From a virus: a stretch of 36,003 bases of DNA. Made by a program: the position numbers and the translations under genes. Positions 1,424 through 18,142 of the stretch are shown here, one piece after another. The notes under the pieces were generated by a model that made no database searches, was not told where the DNA came from, and saw only the letters and a program-made list of their open reading frames with translations. The DNA lies in the IMG/VR virus record IMGVR_UViG_3300020427_000005, positions 1 through 36,003 of that record, one strand, 5' to 3'. The number at the start of each line of letters is the position of its first letter. Within the stretch, counting starts at the first letter, position 1.

Positions 1424-3019
1424 CTATGCGGCGAGGCTTGACGGCTGTTTGAAGCGCCATGGCATTAGGTCTTCGATGTCGCTTTTGGGGTGACCGTTGA
1501 GGATGGCGCGCAAGGTGGCGGCGATGTAGTCGACCGGGTTGACATCAGCCAGCTTGCAGGTGGCGACGAGCGAGGCCAGCATCGCCCAGTTTTCGGCACC
1601 GATCTCGTTCCCGGCGAAGAGCGCGTTCTTGCGGGTCAACGCGATGGGCCTGATCTGGTTCTCGACCGGATTGGTGTCTAGCTCGAGCCTGCCGTCGTCG
1701 AGGAAGCGGCTCAGGCCAGGCCAGATTGCCAGCGTGTAGCGGATGTCCTCGGCCAGCCGGGACTTGCCGGGGATGCGCGACAGCTGGGCCTCAAGCCAGG
1801 GCTTGAGGGCTGCGATGATCGGGGCGGCATGCTCGCGGCGGGCGGCGAGACGAACTGCGGGAGGCTTGCCACGCACGCTGTCTTCGACCCGATACAGGGC
1901 CGCGATCCGGCGCAGCATTTCCTCGGCAATCGGCGAGCGGTCGCTCTCGAAGCGCTTGACGAAGCGGCGGCGAACATGGGTCCAGCAATGGACCAGTTGC
2001 CATGGTCTGTTGCCGCGCGTGACCTCGGTCATCGCGTTGTAGGCCGGGTATGCGTCGCATTGCAGGAATACCCCCTGATAGCCCTCGAGGAACTTCAGCG
2101 GATGCTCCTTGCCGCGGCCGGGGGCGTAATGGAACAACACGATGGGCGGGTCGGTGCCGCCATGGCCGCGATCGTCGGAGACCACCGCCCAGAACCAGCC
2201 GTTCTTTGTGGCCCCGCGCCCCGGGTCCAGCACCGGGGCGCGGGTCTCGTCGACGAAGATGCGATCGGCCTTGCGTAGGTGGGCCTGCATATGCCGGATG
2301 ATCGGCAGCAGATGGAAGCAGGCGCGCCCCGTCCAGTTGCCGAGGGTGCCGCGGTCGAGATCAAGCCCCTGGCGCCGGAAGATATCGGCCTGGCGGTAGA
2401 ATGGCAGATGGTCGCCGAACTTCGAGACCATGATCCACGCAATGAACTGCTCGGTCGGCAGCCCGCCCGGCACGATATGTTCGGGTGCATGCGCCTGCGC
2501 CATGCCCTGCGCGCAGCGCCGGCAGGCATACTTCGGGCGGCGTGTGACCAGCACCCGGAACTGGGCGGGGATCACATCCAGCCGTTCGGAGACGTCTTCG
2601 CCGATCCGGGCCATCTCGCCGCAGCCACAGGGGCAGAGCGTGCTGGCGGGCTCGATCACCCGCTCGATGCGGGGCAGATGCGGCGGCAGATGTCCGCGGT
2701 TACGCCGGGGCTTGCGGGGGGCATCCGTGCCCCTGGCGGCCCGTAGCGCCGCCTCGGCCTTTTCTTGCGCCGCCTCGAGCACGCCCTGCGCCAGTTCTGC
2801 ATCCTCGAGCGGCAGGTTGAACTGATCCGGCGACAGCTTTTCGGAGCTTTTGCCGAACCTCTCTCGCCGTGCCGCGCGCAGGATTTCCTCCAGCCGACGA
2901 TTGGCATCCTGAACTTCGGCCAGCTGCGCTTCGACCTCGGCAAGGCGGGCGCTCAGACGGGCGTTTTCACGGGCAAGAGCAGCGGCTTCCATGGGGTGAA
3001 GTGAATCACGTCCTCCCAT
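1424..3019 (-). CDS. tnpC: IS66 transposase TnpC
   Basis: This is the DDE transposase of the element. In order, the protein shows an N-terminal coiled coil rich in Glu, Arg and Leu, the RRERFGKSSEKL segment typical of IS66, a zinc-binding part (CPCGCGEM, then CRRC), and the catalytic core. Core markers are IFVDETR (first Asp), FLQCDAYPAYN (second Asp) and LDTNPVENQIRP (Glu), followed by the IS66 C-terminal segment with ENWAMLASL. The stop at 1424-1426 lies 20 bp inside the element. The frame is open back to a TTG at 3061, next to the tnpB stop, which would suit translational coupling. I give the ATG at 3019; ATG 2992 is also possible. Length (about 520-545 aa) is normal for the family. Confidence 0.93.
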   Translation of the reverse strand: MGGRDSLHPMEAAALARENARLSARLAEVEAQLAEVQDANRRLEEILRAARRERFGKSSEKLSPDQFNLPLEDAELAQGVLEAAQEKAEAALRAARGTDAPRKPRRNRGHLPPHLPRIERVIEPASTLCPCGCGEMARIGEDVSERLDVIPAQFRVLVTRRPKYACRRCAQGMAQAHAPEHIVPGGLPTEQFIAWIMVSKFGDHLPFYRQADIFRRQGLDLDRGTLGNWTGRACFHLLPIIRHMQAHLRKADRIFVDETRAPVLDPGRGATKNGWFWAVVSDDRGHGGTDPPIVLFHYAPGRGKEHPLKFLEGYQGVFLQCDAYPAYNAMTEVTRGNRPWQLVHCWTHVRRRFVKRFESDRSPIAEEMLRRIAALYRVEDSVRGKPPAVRLAARREHAAPIIAALKPWLEAQLSRIPGKSRLAEDIRYTLAIWPGLSRFLDDGRLELDTNPVENQIRPIALTRKNALFAGNEIGAENWAMLASLVATCKLADVNPVDYIAATLRAILNGHPKSDIEDLMPWRFKQPSSLAA

Positions 3020-3061
3020 CTTTGGCCAGTAAAAGCAGAGATTTCTTGCGCATTTCGCCAA

Positions 3062-3415
3062 TCAACCGGCAAGCGGTGGACGGCGCGCCCGCTCCGGCCG
3101 GACGAGGCGCCAATCCAGCCCCTCGAACAGCGCTGCCAGTTGCGCTGACGACATCCGCATCACCCCGTCCCGCACCTGCGGCCAGACGAACTTGCCGCCC
3201 TCCAGACGCTTGTGCGCCAGCACCATCCCGGTCTGGTCCCAGAACAGCAGCTTGATCCGATCCGCGCGCTTCGAGCGGAACACGAAGACGGCACCGCAAA
3301 ATGGATCAAGGCCGAACATCTCCTGCACCGCCAGCGCAAGCCCGTCGATGCCCTTGCGAAAGTCGATCGGGCGCGTCGCCACGAAGACCTTCGTGGGACT
3401 GCCTTGCCCGAACAT
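3062..3415 (-). CDS. tnpB: IS66 accessory protein TnpB
   Basis: The 117-residue protein has the family signature: VFVATRPIDFRKGIDGLA near the N-terminus, then FVFRSKRADRIKLLFWD, then KRLEGGKFVWP. TnpB is needed for IS66 transposition, but its biochemical role is not settled. Its ATG (3415) overlaps the tnpA stop in a TGATG arrangement, so translation is probably coupled. Its stop at 3062-3064 directly precedes the region where tnpC begins. Confidence 0.93.
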   Translation of the reverse strand: MFGQGSPTKVFVATRPIDFRKGIDGLALAVQEMFGLDPFCGAVFVFRSKRADRIKLLFWDQTGMVLAHKRLEGGKFVWPQVRDGVMRMSSAQLAALFEGLDWRLVRPERARRPPLAG

Positions 3416-3876
3416 CACGAGGCCGCCGCCCGGGCCGCGCGGATGGCGCGTGTCAGCCGCGCCTCGTCAGCTTCAGCTCCGACCCGGATCACGACATCGC
3501 CCACAACAATTTCCAGATCGAGCCTGTCGCGGACCGGCTGCGCAGGCAGCTCTGGGGCCTCGACGACCAGTTCGGCAAAGGCAGGCAGCCCGGCCATGCT
3601 CTCGGAAACCACCAGGTTCCCTTTGCGCAACTGCTTGCGCCAGTCATAAATCTGCCAGCGGGTCGTGCCGTGCTGGCGCGCAACATCCGCGACCGTCACC
3701 CCGGGCATCATGCTTTCCACTGCAATCCGCGCCCGCTCGGCTTTACCTCGCCGCCGCCGACCGCTCGGCCCCTCAATCACCTCAAGCCGCGAAACTCCGC
3801 TGGTGATCGAGCCGTCCAAATGGACGCCCATTTTGCCGTCTATTTCCAAGTCCAACCCTCCGCTCCGCATCTGCAT
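3415..3876 (-). CDS. tnpA: IS66 accessory protein TnpA, HTH type
   Basis: The 153-residue protein carries an HTH segment of the IS3/IS66 Orf1 kind (GVTVADVARQHGTTRWQIYDW, about residues 59-79) after a basic stretch SGRRRRGKAERAR. It is expected to bind DNA and help transposition. It is the first gene of the tnpA-tnpB-tnpC operon, reading leftward. The start is uncertain: ATG 3876, the ATG two codons later and ATG 3831 are all possible, and none has a clear ribosome binding site. The C-terminal half (LDLEIVVGDVVIRVG) is typical of the family. Confidence 0.88.
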   Translation of the reverse strand: MQMRSGGLDLEIDGKMGVHLDGSITSGVSRLEVIEGPSGRRRRGKAERARIAVESMMPGVTVADVARQHGTTRWQIYDWRKQLRKGNLVVSESMAGLPAFAELVVEAPELPAQPVRDRLDLEIVVGDVVIRVGAEADEARLTRAIRAARAAAS

Positions 3877-4891: not shown

Positions 4892-4921
4892 TTGCTAGAA
4901 TCCACCTGATGTGGATATAGT
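4892..4921 (+). promoter_or_regulatory. Early rightward promoter, leaderless type
   Basis: -35 TTGCTA (4892-4897) and -10 TATAGT (4916-4921) are 18 bp apart. The -10 box ends six bases before the ATG at 4928, so transcription should start at or beside the A of the start codon. The operator at 4900-4916 fills the spacer. Confidence 0.7.
4900..4916. promoter_or_regulatory. Immunity operator, Cro-proximal
   Basis: ATCCACCTGATGTGGAT has perfect 6-bp arms identical to those of the site at 554-570. It lies between the -35 and -10 boxes of the early rightward promoter, a position that blocks RNA polymerase. Confidence 0.75.
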
Positions 4922-12993: not shown

Positions 12994-13037
12994 AAGCCCA
13001 CGGCAAGAAACAAGCAGCAGCGCGAGGGACGGCATGA
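12990..13037 (+). CDS. Possible 15-residue coupling peptide
   Basis: ATG at 12990 overlaps the stop of the DUF551-like gene (ATGA). The 15 codons (MKAHGKKQAAARGTA) end at 13037 in another ATGA with the next gene. Such a frame could carry ribosomes across the 40-bp gap between its neighbours. It may have no peptide function, and chance cannot be excluded. Confidence 0.3.
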   Translation: MKAHGKKQAAARGTA

Positions 13038-13555
13038 GCAGAGCAAAACGGGCACGCAAGGCGCAATCGCGGAAAGAGATCACGGTCGCGACCCCGCCGT
13101 GGGATCAGGGCGCAATGGGACCGGCAAACCGGCATCGCCTACGCGAAGAACCGGCCACCGAGATTGACCCGGAGACGGGCAAGGAGACTCCGAACCCTAA
13201 CAACGTCCGCAGGTGGCGGCGGGACAGCCACGTCGCGTTGTTCGCCAAGGCGGGAAAGCTGGACCACCGGCAGGCAGCGGCGGCGGAGAAGCTGGTCTTG
13301 GCGGCAGAGGGATTGAAGGACCGCGATCCGCTCGCCGCACTGGATGAAATCCGCGTTCGTGGCGGTGGCGATCCGCAGGCGGCGCGTGTCGATGCGAGGC
13401 GCTATTTCCGGCAGCTATGGGATGACGTGCCAACCGCCTCGCGGCCAGTGATCGAACGCGTGGTGCTGGACGACAAACCTCTTTGGCACGGCAATCCTGC
13501 ACAGCGCGAACGCCATATGCAGCGGTTGCGTGATGGGCTTGACGCTATCGCATAA
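13034..13555 (+). CDS. Hypothetical protein, last gene of the early operon
   Basis: The 173-residue protein has a basic N-terminus (MSRAKRARKAQSRKEITVAT), a middle NPNNVRRWRRDSHVALFAKA, and a C-terminal part with YFRQLWDDVPTASRPVIERV. The layout (Arg-rich motif, helical region, late W-D pattern) recalls alphaproteobacterial phage proteins found just before the late genes, but I cannot name a family. Lambda's antiterminator Q occupies this position, so a late regulator is a reasonable guess. AGGGACGGC lies upstream of the ATG. Confidence 0.65.
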   Translation: MSRAKRARKAQSRKEITVATPPWDQGAMGPANRHRLREEPATEIDPETGKETPNPNNVRRWRRDSHVALFAKAGKLDHRQAAAAEKLVLAAEGLKDRDPLAALDEIRVRGGGDPQAARVDARRYFRQLWDDVPTASRPVIERVVLDDKPLWHGNPAQRERHMQRLRDGLDAIA

Positions 13556-13582: not shown

Positions 13583-13610
13583 TTGACTATCCCCGCAATG
13601 GGGATATATT
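13583..13610 (+). promoter_or_regulatory. Strong promoter with a palindrome in its spacer
   Basis: -35 TTGACT (13583-13588) and -10 TATATT (13605-13610) are 16 bp apart. The spacer is the palindrome ATCCCCGCAATGGGGAT (13589-13605), with perfect 6-bp arms around five bases. The geometry equals that of the immunity operators, but the arms differ (CCC for CAC), so another HTH protein may bind. The -10 box ends six bases before an ATG at 13617. Confidence 0.72.
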
Positions 13611-14192: not shown

Positions 14193-14384
14193 ATGACCCC
14201 TGACCAGTACGCCCGCTGGGTCGCAGACATGATCGACGCGGGGCGGGCCAGATCGGCCCGTCAATGCGCGATGATGCTGGGCTATGCTGACAAACATGCC
14301 AACCGGCTCAAGGATCGCGGCGGTGATTATCGGCTGGCGCTCGCCTGCGCTGCGCTACTCAACAGGGTTGATGCCTATGAGTGA
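14193..14384 (+). CDS. Small HTH-like protein, paralogue of the 11831 gene
   Basis: The 63-residue protein starts MTPDQYARWVADMIDAGRAR and ends LALACAALLNRVDAYE. It matches the leftward protein at 11831-12022 in length and in spaced residues (W, M, CAxxLG, N, ALAC, ALL). The middle (ARQCAMMLGYADKHANRLKD) looks like an HTH. It is probably a DNA-binding regulator, encoded just before the promoter at 14394-14421. The ATG has GAGG about nine bases upstream. Confidence 0.65.
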   Translation: MTPDQYARWVADMIDAGRARSARQCAMMLGYADKHANRLKDRGGDYRLALACAALLNRVDAYE

Positions 14385-14393
14385 TATGCGTCA

Positions 14394-14421
14394 TTGACAG
14401 GATCAGCGAACAGTGTATTTT
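14394..14421 (+). promoter_or_regulatory. Near-consensus promoter, candidate late promoter
   Basis: -35 TTGACA (perfect, 14394-14399) and -10 TATTTT (14416-14421) are 16 bp apart. Transcription should begin near 14428. It is the strongest-looking promoter in the window and lies at the junction between early genes and the HNH/terminase operon. Confidence 0.72.
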
Positions 14422-14427
14422 TACTTT

Positions 14428-14525
14428 AATCGCCAGAGGCGTGCAGCGGGCCGGTCTGGCAGGATCAGCCCGCATTTTGTTCCCGAGGGACAACAGCCCG
14501 CCCGCAGAGATGTAGGCGGGTTTCT
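14428..14525 (+). ncRNA. Candidate folded leader RNA or small RNA of about 100 nt
   Basis: Between the promoter at 14394-14421 and the terminator-like hairpin no ribosome site or long frame is seen. GCCAGA (14432-14437) pairs with TCTGGC (14455-14460). GCGGGC (14446-14451), inside that loop, pairs with GCCCGC (14468-14473), so the two stems form a pseudoknot or alternative folds. TTGTTCCC and GGGACAA (near 14478-14493) make a third hairpin. The layout recalls the lambda 6S leader RNA. Confidence 0.5.
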
Positions 14526-14527
14526 CC
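14497..14527 (+). terminator. Terminator-like hairpin before the late operon
   Basis: CCCGCC (14497-14502) pairs with GGCGGG (14515-14520). Inside, after one mismatch, GCA pairs with TGT (one G-U) around a GAGA tetraloop of the GNRA type (14507-14510). TTTCTCC follows, a short T-tract. It could end a 100-nt transcript or act as an attenuator. Confidence 0.55.
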
Positions 14528-14596
14528 ATGCGAGGGACAGTGATCTACTTCGCCGCCTTCATCATCGGATGCTGGATCGCGACGGAAACGAGGTGA
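14528..14596 (+). CDS. Possible 22-residue membrane peptide
   Basis: ATG at 14528 opens 22 codons: MRGTVIYFAAFIIGCWIATE, then TR. The hydrophobic stretch VIYFAAFIIGCWIA is long enough for one membrane span, with charges at both ends. Only the right arm of the terminator-like hairpin (GGCGGG) could serve as ribosome site. It ends five bases before the HNH gene, and its 3' end contains that gene's GAGGTGA ribosome site. Confidence 0.35.
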   Translation: MRGTVIYFAAFIIGCWIATETR

Positions 14597-14600
14597 CGCT

Positions 14601-15020
14601 ATGGCTCGCCGCAACAAGGGCGATGCCACGTTCTACCAGACACAACGCTGGCTGAACCTACGGCAAGCCATCCTCAAGCGTGACAGCTTCACCTGCCAGA
14701 TGTGCGGCGCCATGCTGCGAGAAGGCAGAAGCGACAAGGCCAACACCATTCTGCGCCCCGCTGTGGTCGATCACCTGGAGCCGCACCGAGGCGACCAGTC
14801 GCTGTTCTACGATCAAGACAACCTGTGGGCCATTTCGTCCGATATGCACGACAGCGTGTGTCAGGCGATTGAGGCCAAGTATGCAGATGATCCTTTGCGC
14901 ATCGTGGCGGAGAAGCTGAAATATCGGTTCATTGGCTGGGATGGGTATCCGGTATCGCCCCCTGAAAGGTGGGTTGATAGGCATTGGGCTTCCAAGCTGA
15001 TTCGGTATGGGGTAAAATAA
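14601..15020 (+). CDS. HNH endonuclease next to the terminase genes
   Basis: The 139-residue protein has the HNH layout of terminase-associated phage nucleases. WLNLRQAILKRDSFTCQMCG (first zinc knuckle) leads to VVDHLEPHRGDQSLFYDQDN (catalytic DH and structural N) and MHDSVCQAIEA (last His). In HK97-like cos phages such a protein helps the terminase cut DNA at cos. GAGGTGA lies six bases before the ATG. It is the first full gene after the candidate late promoter and leader. Confidence 0.85.
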   Translation: MARRNKGDATFYQTQRWLNLRQAILKRDSFTCQMCGAMLREGRSDKANTILRPAVVDHLEPHRGDQSLFYDQDNLWAISSDMHDSVCQAIEAKYADDPLRIVAEKLKYRFIGWDGYPVSPPERWVDRHWASKLIRYGVK

Positions 15021-15999: not shown

Positions 16000-16428
16000 A
16001 TGCGTAAGCCTGACTACAAACGCGCCTATCGCGAGTGCGAGGATGGCGATGAGCGGGCGGAATTGGCGTCTGCGGAATGGGAATCCATCAAGGCGCACCT
16101 GGCCGAACGCGATCTTCTGACTGATCGGCGGATGAAGATCGCTGACCGGCTGGCGCGTGAGGTTGTCGAATATGAGTTCCTGTTCCCGACTGTGGCGGCG
16201 GAAGGCGCTGTTCTCGTCGGCGGCGGGGAAAATGCCGGTGAGTATTTCAACTACCGCTTCTCGGCGCTAAAGAAACATCAGGCGGAAATCCTCAAGCTAG
16301 AAGAAGCCCTGCAGATCACAGTGAAGGGTGGCGATGGCAAAGGCAAAGAGCCGGAACGCCCCAAAGTCGCGGCGGACAGATACCTCAGCGGCGGACCCGA
16401 CCAGCGAATACGCGCGCCGCGTCATTGA
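16000..16428 (+). CDS. terS: Terminase small subunit, P27 family
   Basis: The 142-residue protein has the P27-type pattern: an N-terminal helical part (MRKPDYKRAYRECEDGDERA), then MKIADRLAREVVEYEFLFPT, then GEYFNYRFSALKKHQAEIL. It should bind the cos region and hand DNA to the large subunit for packaging. It overlaps the large subunit gene by 95 bp, which is common for this pair. It lies directly after two HNH genes, as in HK97-like cos phages. Confidence 0.82.
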   Translation: MRKPDYKRAYRECEDGDERAELASAEWESIKAHLAERDLLTDRRMKIADRLAREVVEYEFLFPTVAAEGAVLVGGGENAGEYFNYRFSALKKHQAEILKLEEALQITVKGGDGKGKEPERPKVAADRYLSGGPDQRIRAPRH

Positions 16429-18142
16429 TGGCGAGATTGTCGCTGGTAAGTTCGTCCGTCTGGCGTGTGAGCGTCATTTCGAGGATCTGACGGCAGGAGC
16501 GGCAAGGGGTCTGTATTTCGACCAAGAGGCCGCACTGGATGCGATAGAGTTCTTTCCGGCCATGCTTTCGATTACGGACGGGCCATTGGCGGGACAGCCT
16601 TTCGAGTTGCTGGATTGGCACAAGTTCGTCGTCGGATCGCTCTTTGGTTGGTATAAGGACGGGCGCTTGCGGTTCCGCGAGGTTTTCGTTGAAACGGGAA
16701 AGGGGCAAGCCAAGTCGCCGCTGATGGGCGGGATCGCGCTATACGTCGCGGGCTTCATGGGCATCCAGCGGGCGCAGACGTATTTCATCGCGGCAAAGCT
16801 TGATCAGGCGAAAATTCCGTTCAAGGATGCTGCGGCATTCGTGCGGGCAGAAATCCCTGGCAGGGGTGAGACACTGGAAAGCCGGGGCGATGTGTTCGTT
16901 TCTGGGTCCGGCGAGAACGCATGGCGGATCGAGTTTCGCGAACAAGGTTCGTTTCTGGAAGCCAAGGCGACGACTGACAGCCTGTCAGGGCCGCGTCCTG
17001 ACGCTGTGTTTGCTGACGAGGTGCATGAGTTCGCCAAGGCCAAGCCCATCGAGTTGTGGAAGGCTGGCGTCAACAAGAAACACGGTTCAGCGTTTCTGTT
17101 CCTCGGGACGAACACCCCGGCGGCGGATCAGATGGTCTGCACCGACATTTCGGAGCGCAATCAGCGCATGCTGGAAGGCGTATTCGAGGATGACACCTCA
17201 TTCGCGTATATCGCGCGGGTGGACGAGGACGACGATCCGTTCAACGACGAAAGCTGCTGGATCAAGGCTCTTCCGGCTCTGGGGATCACCTTCCCTATTG
17301 CCAACATTCGGGAGCAGGTAAACGCTGCCAAGACCGACGCGGGTGCGCGGCTGACGGTTTCGCGGCTGTATTTCGGCATTCCGGTTGGCAGTTCTGGGTT
17401 CTGGGTTGACGAGGCGGCTTGGCGGGCGGCGATGAAGCCGGTTCAGATTGACGCCAGCCTGCCTTGCTATCTGGCTCTGGACCTGTCCGAAAAGAACGAC
17501 CTTACGGCGCTGGCCGGGGTCTGGAAGGACGCTGACGACAAGCTGACGGCGCGGGCGTGGTATTGGACGACGCCAAGCGGGCTAGAGCGCAGATCGGCAC
17601 AGGACAAGATTCCGTATAGCAACTACGTCGAGCGGGGAGAGCTGACAGTCACGCAAAGCGCCGTCATTGACTACGAATTCGTGGCTATGCGGATCAAGGG
17701 AATCGTTGCTGCGAACAACGTAGACAGTCTAACGATTGACCCCGCGTTCTGGGAGAAATTCCGCGATGCCTGCGAGAAGATCGGGCTTGCGGTCTGGGTC
17801 TATGAAGGGCCGGACAAGCCGGAAGGGCAGGGGCTGAAGGTCGTGAGGCACAGCCAAGGGACGAGGATCGCGTTCGGTGAGCGCAACCTTTGTATGCCGC
17901 ACTCGATCAGCCGCCTGACGGATAAGATTTTGGCGGGCGAGATCGCTATCGAGGATAACCGGTTGACGCAATACTGCGCTGCAAACGCGGCTCTGAAGCC
18001 TGACGCGATGGGCAACAACATGTTCGTCAAGCCGCGTCAGCATGGCCGGATTGACGGGATTGTGTCGATTGCAATGGCTGTCGGCGCGTCCGAGGGCATC
18101 AAGACCAAGCCACCCAAGAAATACAAGATTCTGGTTCTATAG
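16334..18142 (+). CDS. terL: Terminase large subunit
   Basis: The 602-residue packaging motor has an N-terminal ATPase and a C-terminal nuclease, the Terminase_1 kind found in HK97-like phages. The Walker A-like loop is ETGKGQAKS (about 120-128) and Walker B is AVFADEVHE (224-232). FLGTNTPAADQM follows as a coupling motif. The nuclease begins near residue 380 with YLALDLSEKNDLTALAG (metal-binding Asp). MFVKPRQHGRIDGIVSIAMA near the end contains the last acidic residue. A GTG two codons upstream is a possible alternative start. Confidence 0.95.
   Translation: MAKAKSRNAPKSRRTDTSAADPTSEYARRVIDGEIVAGKFVRLACERHFEDLTAGAARGLYFDQEAALDAIEFFPAMLSITDGPLAGQPFELLDWHKFVVGSLFGWYKDGRLRFREVFVETGKGQAKSPLMGGIALYVAGFMGIQRAQTYFIAAKLDQAKIPFKDAAAFVRAEIPGRGETLESRGDVFVSGSGENAWRIEFREQGSFLEAKATTDSLSGPRPDAVFADEVHEFAKAKPIELWKAGVNKKHGSAFLFLGTNTPAADQMVCTDISERNQRMLEGVFEDDTSFAYIARVDEDDDPFNDESCWIKALPALGITFPIANIREQVNAAKTDAGARLTVSRLYFGIPVGSSGFWVDEAAWRAAMKPVQIDASLPCYLALDLSEKNDLTALAGVWKDADDKLTARAWYWTTPSGLERRSAQDKIPYSNYVERGELTVTQSAVIDYEFVAMRIKGIVAANNVDSLTIDPAFWEKFRDACEKIGLAVWVYEGPDKPEGQGLKVVRHSQGTRIAFGERNLCMPHSISRLTDKILAGEIAIEDNRLTQYCAANAALKPDAMGNNMFVKPRQHGRIDGIVSIAMAVGASEGIKTKPPKKYKILVL

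Follow-up and report, generated by a model that had tools for sequence, protein, structure and literature searches.

A candidate lambda pR'-tR'-like late switch and a regulator slot with mutually exclusive occupants upstream of the HNH-terminase operon of a phage

Background

LoaP or RfaH, which are specialised NusG paralogues, use a hairpin for loading. The presence of rfaH-like genes on prophages has already been noted (PMC7593976). GafZ of Caulobacter binds between the -35 and -10 elements in the promoter of the gene transfer agent (GTA); experiments support its action as an anti-terminator, likely together with NusA, NusG and NusE (PMC11150451), and a consensus -35 element freed the same promoter from its activator (PMC11150451). 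GafZ corresponds to the C-terminal half of Rhodobacter GafA (PMC11150451, PMC9638019), and GafA is annotated as DUF6456 (PMC9638019, PMC9765227).

The DNA analyzed here (the window) is a whole IMG/VR virus record of 36,003 bp, and its host group is probably the alphaproteobacteria. An earlier note had read the early/late junction of this record as a late switch of the lambda pR'-6S-tR' type, with a folded leader that could be an element like put of HK022 or a new riboregulator. In the present study, we compared this junction with those of related phages and with the described systems.

Results

The window contains a minus-strand repressor-like gene and an early operon that ends near 13,555, and the late genes begin at 14,601. 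The genes and promoters around the junction are as follows.

13034-13555, plus strand: p13034, 173 aa, proposed late regulator, tentatively DUF6456/phrog_21451-like
13583-13610, plus strand: second promoter, TTGACT-16-TATATT; its spacer contains the palindrome TATCCCCgcaatGGGGATA
14193-14384, plus strand: p14193, small protein of 63 aa, with its stop just upstream of the late promoter
14394-14421, plus strand: late promoter, TTGACA (14394-14399), 16-nt spacer, TATTTT (14416-14421)
14395-14407, plus strand: 13-nt repeat TGACAGGATCAGC over the -35 element and spacer
14540-14596, plus strand: small hydrophobic ORF of 18 aa with a GTG start
14601-15020, plus strand: HNH endonuclease, first large gene of the late operon (phrog_589, E 1.2e-18)
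16000-16428, plus strand: terminase small subunit (TerS; profile match)
16328-18142, plus strand: terminase large subunit (TerL; profile match)

Thus, the HNH-terminase operon that the earlier note had placed downstream of the leader was borne out, and so was the near-consensus promoter ahead of it. This promoter agrees with the consensus at 10 of 12 positions, a level reached in the whole window only here and at 13583; the stop codon of p14193 precedes it by 10 nt, the HNH gene follows about 200 nt downstream, and we infer a start near 14428. No operator-like palindrome of the repressor type is found at the promoter at 14394, unlike the promoters at 4892 and 13583, and its spacer contains no palindrome like ZBE (the GafZ site). 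The 13-nt repeat, of which a second copy (12 of 13 positions) is located in the leader at 14457-14469, is a possible factor site.

The spacer palindromes of the early promoter at 4892 (4892-4921; ATCCACctgatGTGGAT) and of the promoter at 13583 are alike, and the palindromes TCCACcaattGTGGA (555) and TTCACacgagGTGGA (586), within 553-600, lie upstream of the likely start (about 641) of a gene for a RelA_SpoT-domain protein (344-1441; PF04607, E 1.9e-20). Together, the palindromes at 4892, 13583, 555 and 586 look like one repressor regulon. Near the left end, a transposase gene cluster on the minus strand (1424-3876; phrog_688, phrog_623 and HTH_Tnp_1) is IS66-like as judged by its gene layout.

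The leader downstream of the promoter at 14394 has the following features.

14428-14530, plus strand: folded leader RNA, predicted, 103 nt
14432-14460, plus strand: stem 1 of the putative pseudoknot, formed by GCCAGA (14432-14437) and TCTGGC (14455-14460), which competes with a small hairpin at 14431-14441
14446-14473, plus strand: hairpin 2, which is also stem 2 of the putative pseudoknot, with the U-rich tail ATTTTGTT
14477-14493, plus strand: hairpin 3
14484-14492, plus strand: direct repeat CGAGGGACA (9 nt), copy 1
about 14495-14522, plus strand: hairpin 4, GC-rich, with a GAGA loop and the tail TTTCTCC
14531-14539, plus strand: direct repeat CGAGGGACA, copy 2, likely also the ribosome-binding site of the small ORF

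The predicted minimum free energy of the leader is -47.9 kcal/mol, compared with -36.6 kcal/mol for shuffled sequences (z -3.2), and a z as low as this occurs in 1.6% of 1,796 windows along the record. The minimum-energy fold is nested and consists of four hairpins in series, among them the third hairpin and the GC-rich stem with the GAGA loop that the earlier note had described. As for the terminator assigned to the latter stem, an ad hoc score of stem plus U-tract ranked hairpin 4 first and hairpin 2 sixth among 208 terminator-like candidates on both strands of the 36-kb record. However, the T-run of hairpin 4 is short, its d score is -4.9, and a simple terminator scanner called neither hairpin. 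The usual cut-off for E. coli terminators lies above the scores of both. Termination in the leader is therefore plausible, and we do not put it higher.

The proposed pseudoknot fared less well. The arms GCGGGC (14446-14451) and GCCCGC (14468-14473) of stem 2 interlock with those of stem 1, and two exact interlocking 6-bp stems were found, in a post hoc test, in only 0.2% of shuffled 51-mers and, among the 51-nt windows of the record, in 0.35%. Both complementarities are thus present and rare by chance, but forcing stem 1 costs 7.4 kcal/mol relative to the nested fold. In the nascent RNA, stem 1 is the most favorable fold until base 14471 is reached. Since the nested fold wins and stem 1 is favored before this base, the pseudoknot is at most a transient or alternative structure. 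Among relatives, interlocking stems before the HNH gene were not enriched (24 of 142, compared with 90 of 705 control stretches), and the idea that they are a general trait of these phages was rejected.

The leader DNA had no relative in searches of phages and plasmids or among all the terminase loci fetched in this study, and Rfam gave no match at the gathering threshold or at relaxed thresholds. A single relative, IMGVR_UViG_3300020415_000012 (L318), was found by a search of viral contigs with a pattern consisting of the arms of hairpin 2 and TCTGGC, which also gave five chance matches; Rhodobacterales genomes searched with the L318 leader gave just a 24-nt chance match. L318 and the window share early-region segments at 85-99% identity, and their HNH, TerS and TerL differ. 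L318 keeps hairpin 2 (28 nt identical), has a single CGAGGGACA copy and shares the start of the 18-codon ORF, likewise positioned before HNH-TerS-TerL. It lacks GCCAGA, the 5' arm of stem 1, and hairpins 1, 3 and 4, so that no two-stem element of the put type is conserved and the two stems of an H-type pseudoknot are not both kept. A scan found no consensus promoter before the L318 leader; the candidate CTGAAA-16-CATAAT, the spacing of which is in fact 15, was dropped.

Because this one relative has neither the first arm, nor a consensus promoter, nor the terminator hairpin, the put or riboregulator part of the earlier reading is unsupported. A cis-acting antiterminator RNA like put, or a pseudoknot riboregulator, would be in keeping with the rarity of the interlocking stems and with the preference of the nascent RNA for stem 1; nevertheless, with the arm missing in L318, the nested fold ahead in energy, no enrichment in relatives and no Rfam match, we regard it as very improbable. 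A trans-acting small regulatory RNA of 50-100 nt, released by termination, would account for the strong promoter and the stable fold; however, the whole RNA is not conserved, and such a function seems extremely unlikely.

The segment missing in L318 is exactly that between the two copies of CGAGGGACA, i.e., hairpin 4; therefore, hairpin 4 appears to be a 47-nt gain or loss between short direct repeats. The U-tract of hairpin 2 is poorer in L318 than in the window. These differences bear on another explanation, in which hairpin 2 and the small ORF form a structured 5' end that serves the stability or translation of the late mRNA; hairpin 4 would then be a neutral indel, and the late genes would be transcribed from an ordinary promoter that is not subject to control by termination. 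The absence of hairpin 4 between direct repeats in L318, the weak U-tracts, and the fact that the parts common to L318 are hairpin 2 and the ORF start agree with this explanation. On the other hand, hairpins 4 and 2, ranked first and sixth among the terminator-like candidates, stand in tandem, and the regulator slot described below holds transcript-elongation regulators in many relatives. We consider this explanation unlikely, though by no means negligible.

For the region upstream of the HNH gene, we collected relatives of TerL and HNH in genomes and viral contigs; in 143 of the loci, the terminase is preceded by a related HNH gene. A NusG-like gene on the same strand upstream of HNH was present in 38 of the 143 (median distance from HNH, 0.56 kb), and nine of ten such genes tested matched PF02357. 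Another 35 loci have a DUF6456-like (phrog_21451) gene at this place (32 at E<1e-3; median distance, 1.3 kb); members of this second family match phrog_21451 with E down to about 1e-70 and PF20057 (DUF6456) only weakly (3.6e-5 to 1.4e-2). No locus among the 143 has both (hypergeometric P 6e-7 to 1.6e-6). On the TerL tree, at least 16 changes of label between the two families are required, and phylogenetically independent pairs with a difference in both labels were the same in 0 cases and opposite in about 8 (median p 0.008). Because the two never occur together, have been swapped repeatedly on the tree and are always opposite in independent pairs, these sequence comparisons suggest that NusG-like and DUF6456-like genes replace each other in one role. 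DUF6362 as a third family of the slot was dropped, as it occurs at two loci only. Consensus promoters before HNH are at background in these relatives (1 of 35 with a DUF6456-like gene and 3 of 38 with a NusG-like gene; reverse-strand controls, 3 and 3), and the promoter of the window is therefore atypical of them.

In L318, the slot is occupied by a NusG-like gene (E 2.9e-7 with a profile built without the L318 protein), where the window has p13034 followed by three small ORFs. No ORF of the window matched the iterated NusG profile, and no match to the Q family in Pfam, PHROGs or NCBIfam was found among the early ORFs tested. For p13034 itself no confident family match was obtained, and its sole PHROG match is phrog_21451 (E 0.22). 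It is, however, the top ORF of the window for the DUF6456-like family of the slot (HMM E 0.004-0.04), and hhalign against this family gave a score of 26.8, compared with 17.5 for the best of 60 shuffled sequences, at a probability of only 20%. The distance from its end to HNH is 1,046 nt, near the lower quartile (1,056) of the DUF6456-like family. We tentatively regard p13034 as a distant DUF6456-like member. AlphaFold models of p13034 and of the L318 NusG-like protein were too poor to use, and matches of p13034 and p14193 in Sphingomonadales, which overlap other genes, were judged to be chance. In the GafA-like ORF of locus L324, the DUF6456 part looks C-terminal.

The earlier note had also counted the 14193 gene as a possible part of the switch. 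This was not upheld, as the gene is not conserved in the slot and none of its homologues (L013 and L299-L316) was seen with the leader of the window after it. In the viral contigs L303, L308 and L312, p14193 homologues adjoin a convergent NusG-like gene. In the Microcystis phage Mae-JY35, about 1 kb without annotated genes (L014:5430-6401, record 41429-42400) extends from the last early gene to the record end; it has hairpin-like repeats as seen by eye and no Rfam match. Homology of p13034 to this last early gene received no support.

A different conserved leader of 92 nt, GTGAGTAGCG...ACTGCGTAAGCAATTCCC, was observed directly before HNH-TerS-TerL in three NusG-bearing prophage loci of the roseobacter group (L015:5089-5181, L017:5042-5134 and L023:5035-5127). 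It is apparently structured and has no Rfam match; weaker instances are found at L116:3311-3393 and in L334 and L335, and the model R1 finds partial further copies. The phage NusG-like factor may load at this leader. In the manner of LoaP or RfaH, hairpin 2 as RNA, or the 13-nt CAGGATCAGC repeat as DNA, could be the loading site of the read-through factor (p13034 in the window, the NusG-like protein in L318) and not a terminator. Besides the leader common to the three roseobacter prophages, two observations speak for such a site: hairpin 2 is identical in two phages that differ in both regulator and late genes, and the 13-nt repeat spans the -35 element and recurs in hairpin 2. It would be awkward, however, for one hairpin to serve two unrelated factors, and hairpin 2 may be identical because of a recent exchange instead of selection, since the other shared segments are equally similar (94-99% identity). 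We consider a loading site in place of a terminator clearly improbable.

Discussion

The reading that we favor is a late switch like lambda pR'-tR' with a GafZ-like protein in the role of Q, a model for which we see about even grounds for belief and disbelief. The promoter at 14394, with its consensus -35 element and no operator-like palindrome, would fire by itself, but the majority of transcripts would end within the leader, at hairpin 4 (14495-14522) and perhaps already at hairpin 2 (14446-14473), as an RNA of about 50-100 nt. The late genes (the 18-codon ORF, HNH, terminase, head and tail) would be turned on by read-through, once a regulator encoded at the end of the early operon (p13034 is the most likely candidate) has been loaded onto RNA polymerase close to the promoter. 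In this model, the job of Q in lambda would fall to p13034 as a distant DUF6456/GafZ-like protein, and in sister phages probably to a NusG-like protein. We infer the start site, termination, read-through and the family and function of p13034 from sequence. The model is favored because of the promoter (10/12), the stability of the leader (z -3.2), the two hairpins ranked 1 and 6, and the exclusivity of the slot; the absence of hairpin 4 in L318, the short T-run and the weak family match of p13034 count against it. Thus, the lambda-like switch remains the best-supported part of the earlier reading (with the first-ranked terminator candidate, no repressor palindrome and slot exclusivity behind it), whereas its put or riboregulator part does not stand.

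The exclusivity of the slot is more informative and more interesting than the leader, which is itself a modest find. A broader reading, somewhat more doubtful than probable, is that a large group of alphaproteobacterial temperate phages with an HNH-TerS-TerL late operon carry interchangeable elongation regulators of late transcription at one slot, either a phage NusG paralogue or a DUF6456/GafZ-like protein, before a terminator-bearing leader, and that GafZ is a domesticated late antiterminator of phages. If this is true, late control of the lambda Q type would exist in alphaproteobacterial phages and be run by unrelated proteins, GafZ, the anti-terminator of the GTA, would be linked to late regulators of phages, and the NusG-like proteins of phages would gain a concrete target, the late leader.

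Among the described systems, HK022 put resembles the leader in being a folded RNA directly after a phage promoter; it differs in that no sequence or Rfam match was found, the fold of the window is not conserved and the pseudoknot is not favored. The lambda pR'-6S-tR'/Q system shares with the window a promoter at the early/late junction, a short leader, a terminator-like hairpin before the late genes and a regulator gene just upstream; however, no Q homologue was found, and the predicted leader is about 100 nt long. RfaH and LoaP are comparable to the NusG-like genes in the same slot of 38 relatives and of L318, for which a late-regulator role is suggested by position only; the window, in contrast, has no NusG-like ORF. 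With respect to the GTA, p13034 is only distantly DUF6456-like, the spacer at 14394 lacks the palindrome of the GafZ site, the -35 element of the window is the consensus, and the terminator candidate lies before the first large gene and not, as in the GTA, after it. Nevertheless, the Caulobacter GTA with GafY-GafZ and Rhodobacter GafA present the same combination of a head-gene operon of an alphaproteobacterial phage-like element and a DUF6456-type protein, and Caulobacter GafZ acts both at the promoter and in anti-termination, a role that p13034 would, as we propose, share.
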